Source: Capsulimonas sp.
GTDB lineage: Bacteria; Armatimonadota; Armatimonadia; Armatimonadales; Capsulimonadaceae
Direction: 5' to 3'
DNA: 10,238 bases
NCBI GenBank assembly: GCA_025963815.1
Contig: JAOQAA010000426.1
Coordinates: 1 to 10,238 of the forward strand
This document shows, piece by piece, positions 1 through 10,238 of this stretch. Position 1 is the first letter of the stretch, and every line of letters starts with the position of its first letter. The notes beneath the pieces were generated by a model that saw only the letters and a program-made list of their open reading frames with translations, ran no database searches and had not been told where the DNA came from. Position numbers and translations under genes: made by a program.

Positions 1-2754
1 CACGAAGCACTGCGCACGGGGCTCAGGATCGGAACACTCGTTGTGCGTGGTGGCGTGAAAGGAAATCAGCTTTGTCGACGGGAGGTCGTACATCGAGATT
101 CTATTGTTGGCGACAACTAACCGCTCGCCGTTTGCAATGACGATATGGCTCGCAACGGACTCAAGATGCAGTTCCGGCTGAAGGGTCGCGGGCGGCAGCG
201 CCCAGAGCCTGGCTGTTCCATCCTGGCCTGCGGTGAAAATATGAGAGCTGTCCGCGCCAAACTGCGCCGCCACGAGCGGGCCGGCGTGACGCAAAGGAGC
301 GCAAATGGCTGCTCCCGTAACTGCGTCCCAAACGCGCGCCGCGCCGTCGTCACAGGCCGTTAAAATCCTGCGGCCGTCCGGACTGAACGAGACATGGGTG
401 ATAGGCCGTGTATGTATCAGAGGTGGTGTTACGGGCAGGCCCGTCGCTGCGTCCCAAACGCGTGCGACGCCATCCCCGCCGGCGGTGGCGATTCGATGCT
501 CGTCGGGACTCCAGGCAGCGTCCGAGGCGAACTGACCGTGCCGCATGAGCGCCGTCAATTGAGTCGTGGCGAACCTCGAAACGGCTTGGGAGGAGAAAAC
601 GCAGGCGCCGGGATTACTGGCTGTATTTCCAAACGCGCCTGCGACCAGCAGACGCTGGCCGTCGCGACTGTATGTCACTCGGCTTCCGACATAACACCCG
701 CCCAGCGCTCGCGATCCTAACACGGAAATCGTATCACATGTAGGAATGGAGATCTGCTGACCGAGAAAATTCCCCGCGATGACCGTGATACGCTTGCCGT
801 CCGGAGAAAAAACGACTCCGGAGAGATGGGCGCCCATAAACTCCTGTGCGGGGATCGCGAGGGTGGGGGCGGTGTTCTTACGGACATTCCAGACGTGGAT
901 GGAGCCGCCCCAGACCACGGCGATGCGGCGTCCGTCCTGACTCCACGCCGCTCGCGTGGTCTGGGTGCGTCCATCCGTCTGCGCCTGACGGTGTTCTTCC
1001 TTTGGGGCGAGCGGTCCCAATGTCCAAAGCAAACGACGTTCGTTCAGATCCCACACGCGCGCGCGCGCGTCCTCGCCACACGTCATCAATCGACTGCTGT
1101 CTGGACTGAAAACAGCGTCGGTGATTGCGCCGTCGTGAGCCATTGTCAGCGGCAGTTCAAAGCCTGTCGCCACATCCCAGACGTGCGCTCGCCCATCCAG
1201 GCTGGCGGCGGCGATACGCTTCTTATCCGGTGAATACGACGCCCAGCGCAGCGGGCCGCCGGGGCGCCATAAGTGCTGAATCTGGGGTGTGAGCGCCAGC
1301 GCGGCGGCGAAGCGCATTCTGTGCCGAGCCATTCGCGTCGGATCGTCATGATCCAGCGTCATTGCTTCCGCGAGGGGCGCCAATGCGGCGCTGGCGTCGC
1401 CGGCGTCCACCAGGCGAGTGGCGTCTTCCACATACGCGCGGCTCAGGCGCGCGCGCGCGAGCGTTTCCTCGTGAGCGGCCAGCTTGCTTTGCGCCACGGC
1501 GCGCGCGGTGGCGCGGCGCGCGACATCGGCGCGGTTGACGGCGACGCCAGCCAGCGCCGCGACCAGCAGCAGGATCGCGCCACCCGCCGCCGCCGTTCTC
1601 AGCGCGCCGCGCAGATACGCCTGTCGCTGCCGGTGCACTTCCTCCCCAGGCAGGCTGGAGTGTACCCACGCCTTATCGAATACGTCTCGGTAAATACGAT
1701 TACGAACGATCAGGCGATCGCCAGATCGCGCTACGATCCCGGACAGCAATAAGAGCGAACAAAGCGGATTGGCGGGATCGTCGCGCACGCGTCGGCCCTG
1801 CCGGATTTTCAAATAAAAGTCCAGCAGCGTCCCAACATCCGTTTCGCTTTGAAGCAGTCGATTGCGGACAAACGCCAGGTTATCGTCGGTTTCTTGTGCG
1901 GCGCGGCTCAAAAACAGATCGCGGCAGAGATCGTCCACGAACGCATCGTCAAAGCGCGCGTTCGCCGGCGCCGCCGCCATCCGTTCCGAAACGCTCCGGC
2001 ACAGCCGCTGCGTCATATAGGGATGTCCGTTGGTCCAGGACAGAACCCGACGGATGATGCGCTGGGCGCGTGTCTCGCTCCCCGTCAGTCCCTTTGTGAG
2101 CGGTTCTGACTCTTCCGAAGTAAAGTCGCGCAGTTCAATGCGTCGCCCAATATTGAACGGGCTGATGCGCGTATCCCGGACGAGATCCGTGGGCGCCGCC
2201 ACTCCTAGCAGACAGAAGGTCAGATGTCCAAACGCCGGGTCCTGTGGGCGGCGGTTGTAACACTCGCGAATGCCCGCGAAGAACTCATCAGCTGAGAACG
2301 GCAGGATGCGAACGGCGTCGATTTCGTCCACGAACAAGACTAGATCAGCGACGGAATCGGCCCCCGGGGGCGGCGTCAGCAGCACCTCGCGCAGGGCTTC
2401 GAGGAAGCGCTGCATCGGCCCCAGGTCTTTGTGTTCTTTCCAGAAGGCCAGCAGCTCCACCATCCGACCCGTCTGTGTGGCCGTCCGGCTCAGCAGGCCG
2501 CTGTACCATTGTTCGACGGTGAGATTTTGCCCTAGCGCCGTCAGATCCAGAACGGCCACGCGGCGCCCTTCTTCCCGAAGCCGCTGCGCCGTCCGCACCA
2601 TCAAGCTGGACTTGCCCATCTGCCGCGTATCGAGCACATAGCAGAACTCACCCGAACGCAGGCCGTCCAGGAGTTCGGCGTCCGCCCGGCGCACGACATA
2701 AGATTCGGCTGCCGGCGGCAATGTGCCGCCCGTGATGTAGAAGTTGTCGCTCAT
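1..2754 (-). CDS. AAA-like NTPase with transmembrane helix and WD40 propeller (3' end outside window)
   Basis: The minus-strand frame is open from ATG at 2754 to the window edge, giving 918 residues with no stop. Residues 1-360 form an AAA-like (AAA_35-type, STAND-related) NTPase. Walker A is DTRQMGKSS (42-50), Walker B is LFVDEID (140-146), and SPFNIGRR with DFTSEE follows near 198-215. A single hydrophobic helix lies at about 388-406. A helical stretch (about 410-490) then links to at least eight WD40-like blades from about 495 onward, with repeated FSPDGRRI and ARVWD motifs. By family knowledge such proteins are NTP-dependent signalling switches whose propeller binds partners or ligands. 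One helix suggests membrane anchoring, with the NTPase cytoplasmic and the side of the propeller unclear. The ligand is unknown. It lies downstream of a SARP-type regulator with a related NTPase domain and has its own putative promoter in the gap. No strong Shine-Dalgarno precedes the ATG. Confidence 0.92.
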   Translation of the reverse strand, partial: MSDNFYITGGTLPPAAESYVVRRADAELLDGLRSGEFCYVLDTRQMGKSSLMVRTAQRLREEGRRVAVLDLTALGQNLTVEQWYSGLLSRTATQTGRMVELLAFWKEHKDLGPMQRFLEALREVLLTPPPGADSVADLVLFVDEIDAVRILPFSADEFFAGIRECYNRRPQDPAFGHLTFCLLGVAAPTDLVRDTRISPFNIGRRIELRDFTSEESEPLTKGLTGSETRAQRIIRRVLSWTNGHPYMTQRLCRSVSERMAAAPANARFDDAFVDDLCRDLFLSRAAQETDDNLAFVRNRLLQSETDVGTLLDFYLKIRQGRRVRDDPANPLCSLLLLSGIVARSGDRLIVRNRIYRDVFDKAWVHSSLPGEEVHRQRQAYLRGALRTAAAGGAILLLVAALAGVAVNRADVARRATARAVAQSKLAAHEETLARARLSRAYVEDATRLVDAGDASAALAPLAEAMTLDHDDPTRMARHRMRFAAALALTPQIQHLWRPGGPLRWASYSPDKKRIAAASLDGRAHVWDVATGFELPLTMAHDGAITDAVFSPDSSRLMTCGEDARARVWDLNERRLLWTLGPLAPKEEHRQAQTDGRTQTTRAAWSQDGRRIAVVWGGSIHVWNVRKNTAPTLAIPAQEFMGAHLSGVVFSPDGKRITVIAGNFLGQQISIPTCDTISVLGSRALGGCYVGSRVTYSRDGQRLLVAGAFGNTASNPGACVFSSQAVSRFATTQLTALMRHGQFASDAAWSPDEHRIATAGGDGVARVWDAATGLPVTPPLIHTRPITHVSFSPDGRRILTACDDGAARVWDAVTGAAICAPLRHAGPLVAAQFGADSSHIFTAGQDGTARLWALPPATLQPELHLESVASHIVIANGERLVVANNRISMYDLPSTKLISFHATTHNECSDPEPRAQCFV
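321..462. repeat. 16-bp direct repeat from duplicated WD40 blades
   Basis: The sequence CTGCGTCCCAAACGCG occurs exactly at 321-336 and 447-462. The offset is 126 bp, or 42 codons, which is the size of one WD40 blade. On the coding strand both copies encode the ARVWDA end of a blade. Exact conservation at DNA level suggests fairly recent blade duplication or conversion. Confidence 0.85.
1056..1069. repeat. (CG)7 dinucleotide run inside the WD40 gene
   Basis: Seven uninterrupted CG units, preceded by CACA, make an 18-bp alternating purine-pyrimidine tract. It encodes part of an ARARVWDL blade motif on the minus strand. Such tracts can slip or adopt Z-form DNA, but in this GC-rich coding context it may simply reflect Arg/Ala codon use. 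Confidence 0.7.
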
Positions 2755-2802
2755 TTGGAAGCTGATTATCGCCTTCTGGGCAGTCGTTTCGCCGTTATGG
2801 AG

Positions 2803-2857
2803 ATTCTAACCGCCCAATCGTGACGACGGCGTGACGATTAGGACGCGAAACGTGACG
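2803..2857 (-). promoter_or_regulatory. putative SARP-type operator/promoter for the AAA-WD40 gene
   Basis: Three exact copies of the heptamer CGTGACG (CGTCACG on the transcribed strand) start at 2819, 2830 and 2851, spaced 11 and 21 bp, so on one face of the helix. Ten bases nearer the gene is TAGAAT (2808 down to 2803 on the minus strand), a 5/6 match to the -10 consensus. No good -35 exists; the repeats occupy that region. SARP-family activators are known to bind heptamer direct repeats at 11-bp or multiple spacing just upstream of the -10 box. The gene ending 24 bp away encodes such a regulator. Expected transcription start is about 40 nt before the ATG at 2754. An imperfect inverted repeat (AATCGT/ACGATT, 2816-2839) overlaps the sites. 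Confidence 0.5.
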
Positions 2858-2880
2858 GAACGCGTCATCGCCCATTCGGA

Positions 2881-4698
2881 TTACGCGCCCCCGAGGCGCC
2901 GGGCGAAGAAGGATCGGTAAAGAGGGCAGCGGAACTGGGCTTCCTGTGAGGATGGGCCGGAAAGAATGCCGGCGGCGCGCAGGCGAAAGAACGAATCCGG
3001 CGATGGGCGCCCTTGGCTCGCAAGTATGGCTCGGATGGCGTCTTCCTCGCCTGGCGCGCGTGCGAGGGACATCAGCAAACGGCGCAGGTGCTCGCCGAAT
3101 AAGCCGTCGTCACCGGCGGCGTCCGCTTCAATCTGTTCGACGCGGACGCCTTGCGCCGCCTGATCCAAGCCCAAACGCACCAGATACGGCTGACCGCTGA
3201 CCAGCGCGCCGAAGCGCGCCAGATCGGCTTCCGTCCATGGGCTGCCGTAGCGCTTGTTCAGCTCGGAGATTTGGTCTGAAGTAAAGTCCGCCAGCGCCAG
3301 CCGCGTGCCGACATTGAACGGAGACTGGTTCGGATCGGTGATGAAGAGATGCGCCTCTGTGGCGTAGGCGATGGCGAGCGTCAATCGGCACAGCGGGCTG
3401 CTGGGGTCCAGCGAACGTTCGTTATGCCAGGATCGAAACAATCCAAAGACTTCCCCGCCGAAGGGGCAGGAGAACAATCGGTCCACTTCGTCCAGCCCCC
3501 AGAGCAATGGCCCAGGGAGGGCGGGGAGGATGTGCAGGCGCAGAAACAGCTCCATGTTCATGTTCGGGCCGAAATCTTCGTCCCACACGGCGCGCGGCGA
3601 GACGGAAATCCCCAACTGCCGCGCAATGTCGGCGGCCAGCGCCCGGTAGAGCGCGTCGGGCGCGGCGAGCTGATCGGTGTTGAGCTTCTGGAAATCCGTG
3701 GTCACGACCGAAGCGCCGGCGCTGCGCGCCTGCTGAAGTCCACGCGCCAGCAGTGACGTTTTGCCGACCTGCCGCGCGCCCTTGACCAGCACGATGCTGT
3801 CGCCGCGTGTCAGGGCGGCATGGAACTCCGCGTCCGTCGCGCGCTCGATATAAAACGGGGATTGAATCGGCACGGCGCCGCCAGGCGCATCCAGTGTCAG
3901 CGTCACAGCCTCTTGCGCTGGCTCCCGAACGGGGGCGGAGCGCGGCGTCTCGATTTCCCGCGCCCGGCGCAGCTCTGCGGCCAGTTCCACCGTGTCCGTC
4001 TCCAGCGTCCGCCCTGCCCCCGTCGCCGCCTGTGACAACTTCTCCAGTACCCCAAGAGTCTCGGCGTGACGCCCGCCCACCGCCAGCACCCTGAGCAGAT
4101 CGCGTCCTGCCTCTTCGTCCCCGGGCCGCGAAGCGAGCAGCAGGCGGAGCCACTGTTCTGTCTCCTCCACGCGCCCGTCCCGACGCGCCCGCAGCGTCAG
4201 GCGCCGCAGTGCATTTTCGTACTGGAGCCGCCGCTGCGTCCGCGCCTCCACGGCCCAATTCTCTCTCCACCCATCCAGCAGCCCCCCCCCGTAAAGCGCC
4301 ACGGCGTCCCGCTCAGCCTGCGTGGCCGCATCGCCATCAATTCGAACCAATCGATCGAACGCGAGCATATCGCACTCAACCCCAGTCAAATCCAGCTGTA
4401 CAGCCGCCCGGCTTGGCCGCGTCAGCCGTTCCGCGTCCGGTCCCAGCGCCTGCCGCAGCGACCGCAGCGCCTGTCGAACGCTGGGAAAGTCGCCCTGTCC
4501 GTCCAAACTACCCTGCGCCTCGGCGGGCCAGAACTTCATTGCCAAATCCCGGGATGCAACAGGCTCCCCGGCATGCAGCGTCAAATAAGCCAGCAGCCGT
4601 TCGCCCTCGCGTAGATGCAGTCCGGGCAGGGGAACGCCGCCCTGTGTCGCTTCGAACTTACCGAAAAGCCGCAGTGTGAATGGAGAAAATTGGGTCAT
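2881..4698 (-). CDS. SARP-like transcriptional regulator: winged helix, BTAD and AAA-like NTPase
   Basis: This is a 605-residue protein from ATG at 4698. Residues about 5-105 are an OmpR/SARP-type winged helix (opening FTLRLFGKFEA, with SVRQALRSLRQALG at 73-86). Residues about 108-250 are a helical BTAD (bacterial transcriptional activator) domain. Residues about 280-600 are an AAA-like NTPase with Walker A GARQVGKTS (307-315), Walker B LLWGLDEVD (398-406) and SPFNVGTR/DFTSD (459-475). The family activates transcription by binding short direct repeats, with the NTPase acting as a nucleotide-dependent switch. The same NTPase type occurs in the downstream AAA-WD40 gene, so the two may interact. 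An in-frame ATG at 4779 would add 27 residues of no recognised family. Neither start has a clear Shine-Dalgarno; 4698 is preferred because the winged helix begins right after it. A G9 tract interrupts the BTAD-coding region. Confidence 0.92.
   Translation of the reverse strand: MTQFSPFTLRLFGKFEATQGGVPLPGLHLREGERLLAYLTLHAGEPVASRDLAMKFWPAEAQGSLDGQGDFPSVRQALRSLRQALGPDAERLTRPSRAAVQLDLTGVECDMLAFDRLVRIDGDAATQAERDAVALYGGGLLDGWRENWAVEARTQRRLQYENALRRLTLRARRDGRVEETEQWLRLLLASRPGDEEAGRDLLRVLAVGGRHAETLGVLEKLSQAATGAGRTLETDTVELAAELRRAREIETPRSAPVREPAQEAVTLTLDAPGGAVPIQSPFYIERATDAEFHAALTRGDSIVLVKGARQVGKTSLLARGLQQARSAGASVVTTDFQKLNTDQLAAPDALYRALAADIARQLGISVSPRAVWDEDFGPNMNMELFLRLHILPALPGPLLWGLDEVDRLFSCPFGGEVFGLFRSWHNERSLDPSSPLCRLTLAIAYATEAHLFITDPNQSPFNVGTRLALADFTSDQISELNKRYGSPWTEADLARFGALVSGQPYLVRLGLDQAAQGVRVEQIEADAAGDDGLFGEHLRRLLMSLARAPGEEDAIRAILASQGRPSPDSFFRLRAAGILSGPSSQEAQFRCPLYRSFFARRLGGA
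4282..4290. repeat. nine-base homopolymer (C9; G9 in coding sense) within the regulator gene
   Basis: The run encodes Gly137-Gly139 of the BTAD domain of the minus-strand regulator. Runs of G or C this long inside genes are known hotspots for slipped-strand frameshifting. A one-base change would remove the NTPase domain from the main frame. Whether it varies cannot be judged from one sequence. Confidence 0.8.
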
Positions 4699-4829
4699 TG
4701 AGGATTGCGTATGAAAATGGGAACCTGTAAACTTACTGTGCTCTGAAACTTCGACGCGCAAGAAGGATTTTCCTGCCATTTTAAGAAATTACGCTTACTT
4801 GTCAGCAGGAAGCGATTGGGGATGAAGAT

Positions 4830-5871: not shown

Positions 5872-7065
5872 TCAAACACGAAGAAAGATCTTGTTGCGGT
5901 AGAGATAGGCCAGCAGCAGCCAGCAGATGATGATGTAGATTGTGGTGTAGACGATGCCGCCGCCGATGGGGCCGTAGTGTGTGGTCGCGCTGTGGAGCAT
6001 CGCCTGCTGCAAGGGGACGCGCTTGCCGTCGGCGAGAGGCCACGTCCAGCTTTGCAGGATGTAGGCTTTGAAAAGAATCGGCGCGACATATGCCGTGATG
6101 GCGTTTGCGCCTAGCACTGTCAGCGGGATTGCGATGCGCCGCCAGCCCGCCACATCCAGCAGGGCATAAAAGAACGCCAGCGCCACGGCGCCGAATCCGC
6201 CGGTAAACAAGATATAGGAACTTGACCAGACGGCCTTGTTGAACGGCAGCCAGTGGCTCCAGAGGAATCCTATTGCTGCTAGCGCGCCGCCGCCGGCGAT
6301 CATCCACGTCAGTTTCCATGCGGGCGCGGTCTTCTTGCTGCGAAGCAGGTCGCCGATCCCCGTGCCGATGAGCGCGAGAGCGGCTGTCGGAATTACCGAC
6401 AGCAGACCGCTGAGATGGTAGGTCTGGAGGTAATGCTGGTTGACATACGTGATGACGTTGCAGTCCTCGGACGCAATGCCCGGGCCGCAGCCTGGCGTCG
6501 CTGCAAATTGCAGCAGCGCGCCGTGCCCGGCGAGCAGCGCCGTGATGAGCGCGGTACGCCCGATCAGCGGCAGCGGGTACGCGAGCGCCGCCACGAGATA
6601 GGCGATGCCGATCACTTGCAGAACGCCTAAATCCAAAATCGGCTGCTTGGCGATGCTGGAGTCGATCAAACAGCCCAGCAGGACCAGAATGATGGCGCGC
6701 CGCAGATTTTTGCCGGCGCGCGTCGCCCACGACCAGCCTTTGGCGCGGGACGATGCGTCCGAAAAGGGGATCGCGGCGCCGACGATGAGCAAGAACCAGG
6801 GAAAGACGAGATCGGCGAATTGCACGCCTTGATTCCAGTCGGCGTGTGTCAGCTGTTTCGGAGTGGCGGTGTCCAAAGCGATGTTGTTGACGAGCAGCAT
6901 CCCGAGGACCGTCAATCCACGAAAGGCGTCCAGGGACACAAGGCGTGGAGCCGCGGTGAGTACACGCTCTTCGGATGCTCTGGGGCCAGTCTCCGATGTC
7001 GCCCCAGAATCGACCACCAGCGGCGGAATCGGACCCTCTTTCGTGTTCTCTCGCTCGTTGTACAT
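5872..7065 (-). CDS. multi-pass acetyltransferase-like membrane protein (HGSNAT/DUF5009 type)
   Basis: This is a 397-residue protein with a hydrophilic N-terminal tail (1-40) and about ten hydrophobic segments. Family hallmarks are RLVSLDAFRGLTVLGMLLVN (41-60), ADLVFPWFLLIVGAAIPFS (84-102), and KAVWSSSYILFTGGFG (277-292), matching the bacterial relatives of heparan-alpha-glucosaminide N-acetyltransferase (COG4299/DUF5009). Relatives are thought to move acetyl groups from cytosolic acetyl-CoA across the membrane to sugars, but the bacterial substrate is unknown; no nearby glycan genes help. Length is normal for the family. The start at 7065 is preceded by GAGGGG only 2 nt away, a strong but closely spaced Shine-Dalgarno. 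A TATAAT box lies upstream. Transcribed divergently from the P450 gene. Confidence 0.88.
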   Translation of the reverse strand: MYNERENTKEGPIPPLVVDSGATSETGPRASEERVLTAAPRLVSLDAFRGLTVLGMLLVNNIALDTATPKQLTHADWNQGVQFADLVFPWFLLIVGAAIPFSDASSRAKGWSWATRAGKNLRRAIILVLLGCLIDSSIAKQPILDLGVLQVIGIAYLVAALAYPLPLIGRTALITALLAGHGALLQFAATPGCGPGIASEDCNVITYVNQHYLQTYHLSGLLSVIPTAALALIGTGIGDLLRSKKTAPAWKLTWMIAGGGALAAIGFLWSHWLPFNKAVWSSSYILFTGGFGAVALAFFYALLDVAGWRRIAIPLTVLGANAITAYVAPILFKAYILQSWTWPLADGKRVPLQQAMLHSATTHYGPIGGGIVYTTIYIIICWLLLAYLYRNKIFLRV

Positions 7066-7346: not shown

Positions 7347-7534
7347 TGCGCTAGAAGAAACGGGTGAACTATCCAGGCCCTGATTCGAGACGCTCCCCCC
7401 TTGCTCCCAACTGCGTCCGTTGATACAGATCGTCACGTCAAGTTCCCTCTTCTGATTTTTGCCTCACCTTGTTCCCAGCCGAATTGTGTCTGAGAAGGAA
7501 GACGGATCGAACAGCGCTGGAAGGAACTTGATCT
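7347..7534 (+). other. long untranslated leader of the Clp_N-P450 gene
   Basis: About 190 nt separate the predicted start site from the ATG. The segment includes a pyrimidine-rich stretch (7392-7409), a second copy of GTTGATACnGAT (7419-7430; the first, at 7312-7323, overlaps the -35 box), one CGTCACG (7431-7437) and the Shine-Dalgarno GGAAGGAA (7519-7526). I see no known riboswitch fold or attenuator. Confidence 0.35.
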
Positions 7535-9274
7535 ATGTGGCGCCGGTTTGACGAAGGTTTGAAGCGCGCGATTTTGAGCGCGGCCGAGGAAGCAAAAGAC
7601 AATCGACTGACAACAACGCTTCTCTTTCAGCGAGTGAACGCCGAGTGCGCCGAGGCGGCTCGGCTGCTGCGGCGATTGGGCGCACCGGCGGCGTTGACCG
7701 ATGTTGAGGATCGTCGCGAGACGCCGAACGGCGTGCTGGGACTGACGCCGGAGGCGCGCACGGCGTTCGAGCGGACTTACCAAATTGCGGCGGACCTTGG
7801 CGATTGGTCCGTTCGCGGCGAGCATTTCCTTCTTGCCCTCGTGCAAAATCCCGAAACGAGCGACGCCGGACGTGCGCTGGCGCGTGCGGGAGTCCACTGG
7901 GCGTCGGCGGGCGCTGCGCTGATGGCAATGCACCCTCGACGGCTTCGGGCGCCGGAGGGCGTCGACGTTCCTGGCTTGGCCGCGCGCCGCCTGAAGAAAG
8001 GGGTCCGAGCGGCCGCCGGCCGCGCCGCGCGTTTGACGCTTGGGGCGCCGCGCTACCGCAAGTCGTTCACCGCCTATGCCCTGTTCCACGATCGCACCGC
8101 GCGAAATCCTTACCCGATGTACTCCTGGATGCGGCGCAAGCCCGTCTTTTGGGATCCACGCATGAGGCAATGGGTGGTGACTGGATACGCCGATGTGTCG
8201 GCGGCTCTCGCGGAGAACCGGCTTTCGCTGCGCTCCTTTTCCCCGTCCGTGCTGTCCGATGAAGAACTGGCGCCGATTGTCCAGCAGGAGTTTCGTCTGC
8301 TTCCGGGACATCTCGACCGGCAGATGCTGTTTCAGGACGCCCCGGATCAAGTGCGTCAGCGCGCTCAAGTGGCGAAGCGGTTTACCCCGCGCGTGATCGG
8401 CGAGATGCGCGCGCAGATGGAACTGCTTGTGGAGGAGATGCTGGACGGCGTCGCCGGTCGCGGGAGGATGGAGCTAATCGCCGATCTTGCGGTCCCATTC
8501 CCGATTGTCGTTATCATGCGGCTGCTCGGCCTGCCGGAAGGCGAGCGGGCGCGGTTCAAGAAATGGTCCGTGGATTACTTCACCCATATCACGTTTGAGA
8601 CGACGCTGGAGCAGGATGTCGTCACGTATCAAAGCATCCGGGAGGCGTCGGAATACTTTCAAACAGTAATCCAAGAGCGACGCGAGAACCCGGGCAGCGA
8701 CCTGATCTCCCTGCTTCTTAAGCCGGACGACCGGGGCGAGCGGCTGTCCGATCAAGATGTGATCTCCAACAGCATGATGCTGCTTGCAACCGGCCATGAA
8801 AATACGACCCGGCTGATCGGCGCCGGCGTCGCCGCCTTGCTGACCCGCCCCGATCAGTGGACGATGCTGCGCAATGATCCGTCCCTGATCGGCGGGGCGG
8901 TGGAGGAGTTCCTGCGCTTCGATTGTCCCGTGCAGTGGGTGGTGCGTCATCTGCGTGAGGACCTCGAATGGCGCGGCCACTCGATGAAGAAAGGGCAGGG
9001 CGTGTTTCTTGGTCTGGCGGCGGCCAACCGCGATCCGGCGCAGTTCCCCGATCCGGACCGGTTCGACATCACACGCGAGCCTAACCGCCACGTCGCCTTC
9101 GGCTACGGCTCGCACTTCTGTCTCGGCGCCGCCCTGGGACGCCTCGAAACACAGATCGTCGTCAGCGCCCTGATTGCTCGTTTTCCCACTCTCAAATTGG
9201 AAGAACCCATCGAATGGCTCGACAGCGTCATCGCGTTTCGAGGTCCGAAATCGCTCGATGTCGCCTGGGATTAG
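7535..9274 (+). CDS. cytochrome P450 with N-terminal Clp_N domain (fusion)
   Basis: This is a 579-residue protein. Residues about 5-133 are a Clp_N double repeat: DEGLKRAILSAAEEA starts repeat one, and LTPEARTAFERTYQIAADLG with RGEHFLLALV (94-103) and RALARAGV forms repeat two. An Ala/Arg-rich linker (134-175) follows. Residues about 176-579 are a full bacterial class I P450: NPYPMYSWMR near 191, I-helix ATGHENTT (418-425), ExxR E458-R461, and heme loop FGYGSHFCLG (522-531) with Cys529 as thiolate ligand. It should catalyse NAD(P)H-driven mono-oxygenation, needing separate ferredoxin and reductase, which are not in the window. The substrate is unknown. The usual C-helix His of DxPxH is Gln272 here. 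There is no membrane anchor, so it is cytosolic. Shine-Dalgarno AAGGAA sits 8 nt before the ATG. Clp_N normally binds adaptors or substrates of ClpA/ClpC, so its presence on a P450 is odd. Confidence 0.95.
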   Translation: MWRRFDEGLKRAILSAAEEAKDNRLTTTLLFQRVNAECAEAARLLRRLGAPAALTDVEDRRETPNGVLGLTPEARTAFERTYQIAADLGDWSVRGEHFLLALVQNPETSDAGRALARAGVHWASAGAALMAMHPRRLRAPEGVDVPGLAARRLKKGVRAAAGRAARLTLGAPRYRKSFTAYALFHDRTARNPYPMYSWMRRKPVFWDPRMRQWVVTGYADVSAALAENRLSLRSFSPSVLSDEELAPIVQQEFRLLPGHLDRQMLFQDAPDQVRQRAQVAKRFTPRVIGEMRAQMELLVEEMLDGVAGRGRMELIADLAVPFPIVVIMRLLGLPEGERARFKKWSVDYFTHITFETTLEQDVVTYQSIREASEYFQTVIQERRENPGSDLISLLLKPDDRGERLSDQDVISNSMMLLATGHENTTRLIGAGVAALLTRPDQWTMLRNDPSLIGGAVEEFLRFDCPVQWVVRHLREDLEWRGHSMKKGQGVFLGLAAANRDPAQFPDPDRFDITREPNRHVAFGYGSHFCLGAALGRLETQIVVSALIARFPTLKLEEPIEWLDSVIAFRGPKSLDVAWD

Positions 9275-9390: not shown

Positions 9391-10238
9391 GTGGCGGCAA
9401 TACAAACGACGATAGGGGATGGATCGTGGACGGTGGAGCGGGCGTCCACGGGGATCGAGGGGCTGGACGATGTGCTCGGCGGCGGTTTTCCCCGCAACCG
9501 GCTCTTTTTGGTGCAGGGCGATCCGGGCGTCGGTAAAACGACGCTGGCGATGCAGTTTCTGCTGGAAGGGGCGCGGCAGGGCGAGCGTGTGCTTTATGTC
9601 ACGCTTTCTGAAAGCCTGGAAGAGATTCGGGATGTCGTTCATTCGCATGCATGGTCGCTGGATGGGGTCGATATTTACGAGTTCAGCCAGGAAGACCAGC
9701 TCTCCGCGCAGTCGCAAAGCACGATTTTTCATCCGGCGGAAGTCGAACTTGGCGAGACAATGCGGCTTCTGCTGGAAGTTGTTGAGCGGGTTCAGCCCGC
9801 GCGCGTCGTCTTTGACAGCCTTTCCGAACTGCGTCTGCTCGCGCATGATTCGCTGCGGTACCGGCGCGAAATCCTTTCCCTGAAACACTATTTTGCAGGA
9901 CGCAAGTGCACCGTGCTGCTGCTCGACGATCGCACCACGGACGCGGGGGACCGGCAACTGCAAAGTCTGTGCCACGGCGTGGTGGCGCTGGATAACACCG
10001 TTCCCGAGTACGGAGTGGAGCGGTACCGAATCCGTATCACGAAAATGCGCGGCGTGCGGTTTCGCGGCGGCTACCACGACTATATTATTCGGACGGGTGG
10101 TCTGGATGTTTATCCAAGGCTGGTCGCCGCCGAACACAAAACCGAGTTCATCAATAACCCGATCGCGAGTGGTATTCAAGCGCTGGACGATCTGCTCGGC
10201 GGCGGTTTGGATCGGGGCGCCAGCATCGCGCTGATGGG
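9391..10238 (+). CDS. KaiC-like (RecA-fold) two-domain ATPase, 3' end outside window
   Basis: The GTG start gives 282 codons to the window edge with no stop. Domain one (about 18-250) opens with STGIEGLDDVLGGGFPRN, then Walker A GDPGVGKTT (43-51). VTLSES (70-75) is at the site of the paired catalytic glutamates of cyanobacterial KaiC, with only the second kept (Glu74). The EVELGE segment (117-122) and Walker B VVFDSLSE (139-146) follow. A second domain begins at about 258 with SGIQALDDLLGGGLDRG and is cut before its Walker A. This pattern fits the widespread non-clock KaiC-like ATPases of bacteria, usually about 500 residues and often tied to signalling. No kaiA or kaiB is in view. It follows the P450 gene by 116 bp in the same direction; co-transcription is possible, since no hairpin terminator was found in the gap. 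Confidence 0.9.
   Translation, partial: MAAIQTTIGDGSWTVERASTGIEGLDDVLGGGFPRNRLFLVQGDPGVGKTTLAMQFLLEGARQGERVLYVTLSESLEEIRDVVHSHAWSLDGVDIYEFSQEDQLSAQSQSTIFHPAEVELGETMRLLLEVVERVQPARVVFDSLSELRLLAHDSLRYRREILSLKHYFAGRKCTVLLLDDRTTDAGDRQLQSLCHGVVALDNTVPEYGVERYRIRITKMRGVRFRGGYHDYIIRTGGLDVYPRLVAAEHKTEFINNPIASGIQALDDLLGGGLDRGASIALM
9462..10207. repeat. 26-bp near-identical direct repeat at the start of the two KaiC domains
   Basis: Positions 9462-9487 and 10182-10207 match at 25 of 26 bases (G/C difference at the eleventh base). They are exactly 720 bp apart, or 240 codons. Each encodes the LDD(V/L)LGGG(F/L) motif that opens a KaiC domain, reflecting internal domain duplication. Confidence 0.8.

Follow-up and report, generated by a model that had tools for sequence, protein, structure and literature searches.

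The window, which is the whole 10,238-base stretch of DNA analysed here, encodes in a single gene a ClpC-type N-terminal domain (Clp_N) followed by a cytochrome P450. The fusion is real, rare and conserved between two genera of one Armatimonadota family. We tentatively favour the reading that Clp_N is a docking module whose hydrophobic groove would hold a peptide or a protein as partner, and we hold this reading at somewhat less than an even chance. The first-pass annotation of the sequence, which had noticed the fusion, was right, and the architecture appears undescribed in the literature that we searched.

The gene is one intact open frame that runs stop-free for 579 amino acids (Table 1). 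The first-pass annotation had stated that neither a stop nor a frameshift separates the two domains and that a Shine-Dalgarno motif lies ahead of the Clp_N part, and both statements agree with the sequence. Its division of the protein into Clp_N (about residues 1-133) and P450 for the rest holds for the two domains but not for their border, since a linker of 49 residues lies between them and P450 homology starts only at about residue 183. We rejected the idea that the P450 part is translated separately. Between residues 91 and 231, GAGG lies ahead of GTG codons 214 and 215 in the window and GGAG ahead of GTG codon 174 in the homologue described below, and no internal start with a ribosome-site motif falls at a matching place in both. 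Promoter and terminator scans gave results near chance. The window is an entire contig of a fragmented assembly (4.77 Mb, 734 contigs, 69% complete).

Table 1. Features of the Clp_N-P450 fusion gene, in window coordinates
Feature	Position	Strand	Basis or remark
Shine-Dalgarno-like AAGGAA, 8 bases 5' of ATG	7521..7526	+	read directly off the sequence
Clp_N-P450 fusion gene, 579 codons plus stop	7535..9274	+	full-length homologue 53% identical
ClpC-type N-terminal domain, aa 1-133	7535..7933	+	Pfam, phmmer, profile, hhalign
Asp6-Gly8 at ClpC Thr7/Arg9 (S. aureus numbering)	7550..7558	+	replaced in both fusions
Thr28 (hhalign) or gap (HMM alignment) at ClpC Glu32, pArg2	7616..7618	+	lost in both fusions
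LTPEARTAFERTY, aa 70-82, second repeat, groove side by position	7742..7780	+	alignment of the two fusions
Glu96, equivalent of ClpC Glu106	7820..7822	+	kept in both fusions
Linker, aa 134-182	7934..8080	+	41% identity, window versus homologue
Cytochrome P450 domain, aa 183-579	8081..9271	+	closest solved relative BioI
I-helix ATGHENTT, aa 418-425	8786..8809	+	Asn423 where BioI and the homologue have Thr
ExxR motif, Glu458-Arg461	8906..8917	+	translation; kept in the homologue
Heme loop FGYGSHFCLG, Cys529 at 9119-9121	9098..9127	+	translation; kept in the homologue

The P450 part is well defined. Pfam places PF00067 at residues 366-551 (E 7.9e-23, 81.4 bits against a cut-off of 22.8). The best solved relative is BioI (PDB 3ejb, which we take to be CYP107H1), matched over residues 7-395 of the 397-residue P450 part (E 7.1e-74), and the other closest solved structure is YjiB. 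No named P450 subfamily fits, because the matching NCBIfam P450 models score well under their cut-offs. The alignment with BioI, an enzyme that acts on carrier-bound chains, is nearly end to end and covers the ExxR motif and the Cys loop region; in contrast to the window protein, BioI lacks Clp_N in the aligned chain. The earlier reading of an intact P450 with ExxR and a Cys heme loop is thus borne out, and that of an intact I-helix in part: the helix is present, but its usual Thr is replaced by Asn. The acid-alcohol pair of this helix, which is usual in P450s without defining them, is Glu422-Asn423 in the window protein (GHENTT) and Glu-Thr in the homologue (GHETTT). P450cin also carries Asn here, and we therefore do not call the enzyme dead.

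Self-sufficient P450s such as CYP102 and CYP116B consist of a P450 and fused reductase domains. The window protein resembles them in that its P450 is covalently joined to a second domain, whereas that domain would serve in protein docking, and no fused reductase or ferredoxin domain was matched by Pfam up to E 10; it does not, therefore, qualify as a self-sufficient P450. Since a fused reductase domain is absent, electrons would come from separate redox partners.

The N-terminal part was claimed to be a repeat domain of the ClpA/ClpC type, and profile comparisons support this. A profile seeded with the ClpC domain of the host and comprising 86 matching rows, duplicate loci included, aligns at its positions 1-134 with residues 1-125 of the window protein (E 5.5e-13) and covers residues 1-138 of the homologue (E 3e-30). 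When the two fusion domains were compared with six ClpC domains by hhalign, they matched over 136 columns with 29% identity (probability 99.1, E 5.1e-19); both methods thus recover the ClpC layout of two repeats in about 140 residues. Moreover, phmmer matched ClpC1 N-domains across residues 1-120 (E 2.7e-4), the Clp_N domain of the homologue matched the ClpC N-domain 5hbn in the PDB (E 3.2e-12), and phylum ClpC domains align along positions 1-143 of a profile made from the fusion domains. The Pfam search proposed by the first-pass annotation is clear for the P450 and falls just short for Clp_N (PF02861) in the window protein, where only the second repeat is detected (residues 82-120). Scored on the N-terminal part by itself, this repeat reaches 20.3 bits, the cut-off being 20.7; in the whole protein it reaches 16.6 bits. 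The first repeat of this protein is degenerate; the homologue gives two matches above the cut-off (35.3 and 25.9 bits). No AAA family was matched by Pfam up to E 10 in the fusion protein, which is thus not an Hsp100/Clp ATPase. The predicted structures are of low confidence, with a mean pLDDT of 37.6 for the whole protein and 45.3 for the Clp_N domain alone; when the latter model was searched with Foldseek, ranks 1-9 were all Clp or ClpV (best E 0.16, TM at most 0.31).

The homologue (contig JAFAZD010000264.1, G004:C261) comes from a different genus of the same family. It has 589 residues, is identical to the window protein at 53% of positions over the full length and has the same domain order. 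Taken separately, Clp_N is 49.6% identical between the two, the linker 40.8% and the P450 55.9%. In all three parts, codon positions 1 and 2 diverge less than position 3, the differences at the three positions being 0.38, 0.32 and 0.57 for Clp_N, 0.45, 0.39 and 0.55 for the linker, and 0.32, 0.25 and 0.53 for the P450. The N-terminal MW, LTPEAR..ER.Y and GEH motifs are common to both proteins. Two observations had been named beforehand as speaking against a genuine fusion, an N-terminal part without a Clp_N match and homologues in which the two parts are always separate genes; as described, the profiles detect Clp_N, and in the sole homologue found the parts are fused.

We also compared neighbours and phylogeny for the two fusions, as had been proposed. 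In a tree of Clp_N rows the two P450-linked domains are sisters (support 0.84), and their gene neighbourhoods are unlike. The window fusion is flanked by genes for an HGSNAT-like membrane protein and a KaiC-family ATPase (by Pfam), and the neighbours of the homologue, judged by eye, differ. A conserved neighbourhood was therefore rejected, and no partner gene travelling with the fusion was seen at either locus. In G001, a genome from the same genus as the window, homologues of the flanking genes at 5872-7065 (-) and 9391-10236 (+) are separated by about 1.25 Mb. This distance and the fragmented state of the window assembly would fit an assembly or frame artefact that joined two genes, but the same fusion occurs in a separate genome record from another genus, with similarity along the whole length. 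The artefact is for this reason very unlikely, to the point of being negligible, and we rejected it. Elsewhere in the window, positions 1-4779 (-) hold two adjacent AAA_35 genes, one continuing into WD40 repeats and the other with a BTAD-type activator domain ahead of it.

The fusion is rare. A search of 291 Armatimonadota genomes with the full-length protein at E 1e-60, in which up to four candidates per genome were scored and which a fusion with a different type of P450 could escape, gave full-length matches in two. Such an escape is made less likely by a search of the 291 genomes with an N-domain profile: the two fusions scored 244 and 270 bits, by construction, as the profile was built from them, and among the matches listed, with up to 13 candidates per genome scored, nothing else exceeded 103 bits. 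G001, assembled in one contig and 95% complete, yielded nothing that matched the fusion at E 1e-20. Among 15 distinct P450-like frames in the collected loci (phmmer E 1e-5), the two that carry Clp_N are these two. Viral contigs gave no match to the fusion, nor did plasmids, which were searched with the N-domain only. A scan of genome contigs with two N-terminal peptide patterns returned just the known homologue; for genome contigs beyond Armatimonadota, coverage is confined to these two patterns.

These comparisons bear on whether Clp_N has a function of its own in the fusion. It could be decorative, captured once and now a mere folding or solubility module, as its attachment to several unrelated proteins in the phylum (see below), the degenerate first repeat of the window protein and the lack of a match in the same-genus genome would allow. 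Against it, the domain is still about 50% identical across two genera, is more conserved at codon positions 1 and 2 than at position 3, and retains its motifs. We regard a decorative role as unlikely.

What the domain might bind can be approached through residues of known function. The phospho-arginine pocket pArg1 of S. aureus ClpC includes T7 and E106, and pArg2 includes E32; K85 anchors the N-domain to AAA1, and adaptors bind the N-domain, MecA using both pockets. The hydrophobic groove accommodates unfolded substrate and cyclic peptides as well as the adaptor MdfA (PMC12583610, in excerpt). In ClpC1, F2, F80 and E89 are critical for cyclomarin binding (PMC10030653, in excerpt). We compared these positions across 81 Clp_N domains. 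They are those of 90 distinct rows in which 105 or more residues align, the nine shorter ones having been left out; the rows are related to one another. The N-domains of B. subtilis ClpC, S. aureus ClpC and M. tuberculosis ClpC1 are homologous to residues 1-133 of the fusion over both repeats, and the groove positions and E106 are kept, the former conservatively. The fusions differ from them in having no AAA modules and in the replacement of T7, R9 (at or near the pocket) and E32.

At the T7 position the fusions have Asp or Gly, and at the E32 position Thr (or a gap) or Arg. Among the Clp_N rows not linked to a P450, T7 is Thr or Ser in 74 of the 76 that have a residue there, E32 is Glu or Asp in 76 of 79, and E106 is Glu or Asp in 73 of 79; none has lost both T7 and E32, versus both P450 rows. 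Since the rows are related and the P450 domains are sisters, this loss may be one ancestral event counted twice. Both fusions retain E106, W2, L70, T71, E79 and Y82, with Arg in place of K85; in the second repeat L70, T71, R75, E79 and Y82 are identical in the two. The cyclomarin positions F2/F80/E89 read W2/L70/E79 in both fusions and W/L/D in the host ClpC. These are conservative replacements much as in most Clp_N rows, where W occupies F2 in 55 of 64 and L occupies F80 in 67 of 79. Even as a single loss, the pattern leads away from phospho-arginine, and it agrees with binding in the groove.

We therefore dropped, on the residue table, the proposal that Clp_N in the P450 fusion recognises arginine-phosphorylated proteins and brings the P450 to them. 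Kinases of the ATP-guanido family, which includes McsB, are found in 169 of the 291 phylum genomes and in both fusion hosts, and of the three pocket residues Glu106 persists as Glu96; with T7 and E32 lost from both proteins, we consider such a reader highly improbable. In the genome of the window, an McsB-like arginine kinase gene (L002:2031-3113 (-)) adjoins clpC (L002:1-2016 (-)); this kinase matches McsB models, with scores under their curated cut-offs.

The pocket residues also weigh on a role in turnover or quality control, in which Clp_N would tie the P450 to ClpCP through ClpS, another adaptor or McsB, for degradation on a signal or for titration of an adaptor. The host ClpC adjoins the McsB-like kinase, ClpS was found in five of the seven family genomes searched, including that of the homologue (G004), and adaptors bind the N-domain of ClpC (PMC12583610, in excerpt). 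Against this, the pockets used by MecA are altered in the fusion, no adaptor gene was seen beside either fusion, and ClpS was found neither in G005 nor in the 69%-complete genome of the window. The chance of such a role we put at about one in five.

The groove residues, in turn, recall mycobacterial ClpC2, a partial ClpC homologue that binds cyclomarin and acts as a sponge (PMC10030653, in excerpt). ClpC2, like the fusion, has a ClpC-type domain detached from the ATPase, and its groove residues, which bind cyclomarin, have conservative counterparts in the fusions; it differs in having an N-terminal dimerisation part and in repressing its own promoter, whereas the partner in the fusion is an enzyme. 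By analogy, Clp_N might capture a Clp-targeting cyclic peptide, which the P450 would oxidise and disarm. The matching positions W2, L70 and E79 fit this idea, but their occurrence in most other rows makes them not specific to the fusions, and neither fusion has a recognisable gene for biosynthesis or resistance next to it (by Pfam in the window, by eye only for the homologue). We rate antibiotic capture as improbable.

The explanation that we favour remains docking through the groove. The sequences show the fusion itself, its conservation in two genera, intact heme and ExxR motifs, one residue lost from each pArg pocket, and groove residues that are kept; docking and a partner are our inference. 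The gene encodes a soluble bacterial P450, nearest in sequence to BioI among solved structures, with a ClpC-type N-domain covalently fixed at its N-terminus; the hydrophobic groove would bind a peptide or protein, and docking would bring the P450 to this partner, which might be a substrate carrier or a regulator. In favour of docking are the full-length homologue with the same domain order, the lower divergence at codon positions 1 and 2 in all parts, the absence of a third match above 103 bits among those listed for the N-domain profile, and the retention of W2/L70/E79 together with the loss of T7 and E32 in both fusions. Several points weigh on the other side. With two sequences, conservation of the groove may reflect common descent; the same groove residues are usual in Armatimonadota Clp_N rows and serve folding too; and Clp_N is less conserved than the P450 (50% versus 56%). 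In addition, no partner gene was seen to travel with the fusion, the neighbours of the two fusions are unlike, two of those in the window have homologues far apart in G001, a genome with no match to the fusion at E 1e-20, and the structure models are of low confidence. In our view turnover control has about half the likelihood of groove docking, and so does a decorative fusion.

As a rule, a P450 reaches its substrate unaided or by contacts with redox or carrier proteins. A covalently fixed domain that binds peptides or adaptors would be a new way to address a P450. The first-pass annotation knew of no characterised enzyme with a Clp_N-P450 architecture, and our literature searches likewise gave no description of it, of proteins joining Clp_N to ornithine carbamoyltransferase (Clp_N-OTC) or of arginine kinases in Armatimonadota. 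Rare ClpN repeats fused to a vWA domain are mentioned in a literature excerpt. In a table of 30 selected Pfam domains, Clp_N heads those of low versatility (index 0.231; Table 2 of PMC2588589, in excerpt).

In Armatimonadota, this low-versatility domain is attached to several unrelated proteins. Clp_N matches were present in all 21 genomes searched (that of the window and 20 relatives), and from among the matches listed we picked by hand 38 loci, with 45 frames, where the open frame differs in length from ClpC or ClpB. By motif and hydropathy, the 45 picked frames comprise 11 with OTC, three sigma-like, four with at least two hydrophobic segments, two pieces of ClpC, and 25 alone or undefined. 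A Pfam scan of ten of the 45 confirmed OTC in two and sigma-70 regions in two. In the 30 genomes best matching a fused OTC, Clp_N and OTC share one frame in 20 (in one of them partly) and do not in 10, a count that may be biased upward by the query, itself a Clp_N-OTC fusion. Three Clp_N-OTC proteins, one of them from another family, pass the NCBIfam OTC equivalog cut-off.

Like the P450 fusion, the Clp_N-OTC proteins carry Clp_N at the N-terminus of a metabolic enzyme; unlike it, they are far more widespread and mostly keep the pArg residues. In 27 OTC-fused rows, T7 is Thr or Ser and E32 is Glu or Asp throughout, and E106 is kept in 25. The OTC fusions may link arginine synthesis with arginine phosphorylation. 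Examples are L072:1095-2708 (-), L075:4931-6793 (-), L113:952-2436 (+) and L103:3165-5159 (+), among others; the one at L075 has a GspE/PilB-like (T2SSE) stretch at residues 175-285, between Clp_N and OTC.

It is conceivable, though we think it quite unlikely, that the ClpC N-domain of Armatimonadota is a general plug-in recognition module of OTC, sigma factors, membrane proteins and the P450, in which copies that keep the pockets would read arginine phosphorylation and the P450 copy would have abandoned such reading and would use the groove to deliver a peptide or protein substrate to the heme. If true, this P450 would be the first to be addressed through a domain of protease recognition. The spread of Clp_N in the phylum may matter more than the P450 fusion itself. 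Because the domain sits on unrelated proteins, Armatimonadota is a place to ask what a Clp N-domain recognises apart from the ATPase, and also whether arginine phosphorylation regulates enzymes besides marking proteins for degradation.

Other arrangements of Clp_N were seen in the collected loci. It is C-terminal on ECF-type sigma factors at L067:741-2231 (-), L077:2128-3717 (+) and L090:2126-3319 (+), of which the first two have Pfam sigma-70 regions and the third, in a frame cut by the contig end, is assigned by motif only and has a weak Clp_N match. In the genome of the window, L069:1645-3843 (+) (G000:C178) holds three consecutive Clp_N frames; by hydropathy, the first and second contain three hydrophobic segments each and the third contains one. 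In G005, a multi-repeat Clp_N gene (L080:3244-4773 (+)) lies near an argH-like gene, recognised by eye, and is convergent with a P450 gene (L080:4954-6324 (-)), with an unfused OTC upstream on the same contig; we treated this adjacency of Clp_N and P450 as chance, as the genes are convergent and the P450 is not matched by that of the window (phmmer E 1e-5). Finally, four-repeat Clp_N proteins in frames of their own lie directly upstream of an unfused OTC at L111:1036-2019 (+) and L134:223-1245 (+).
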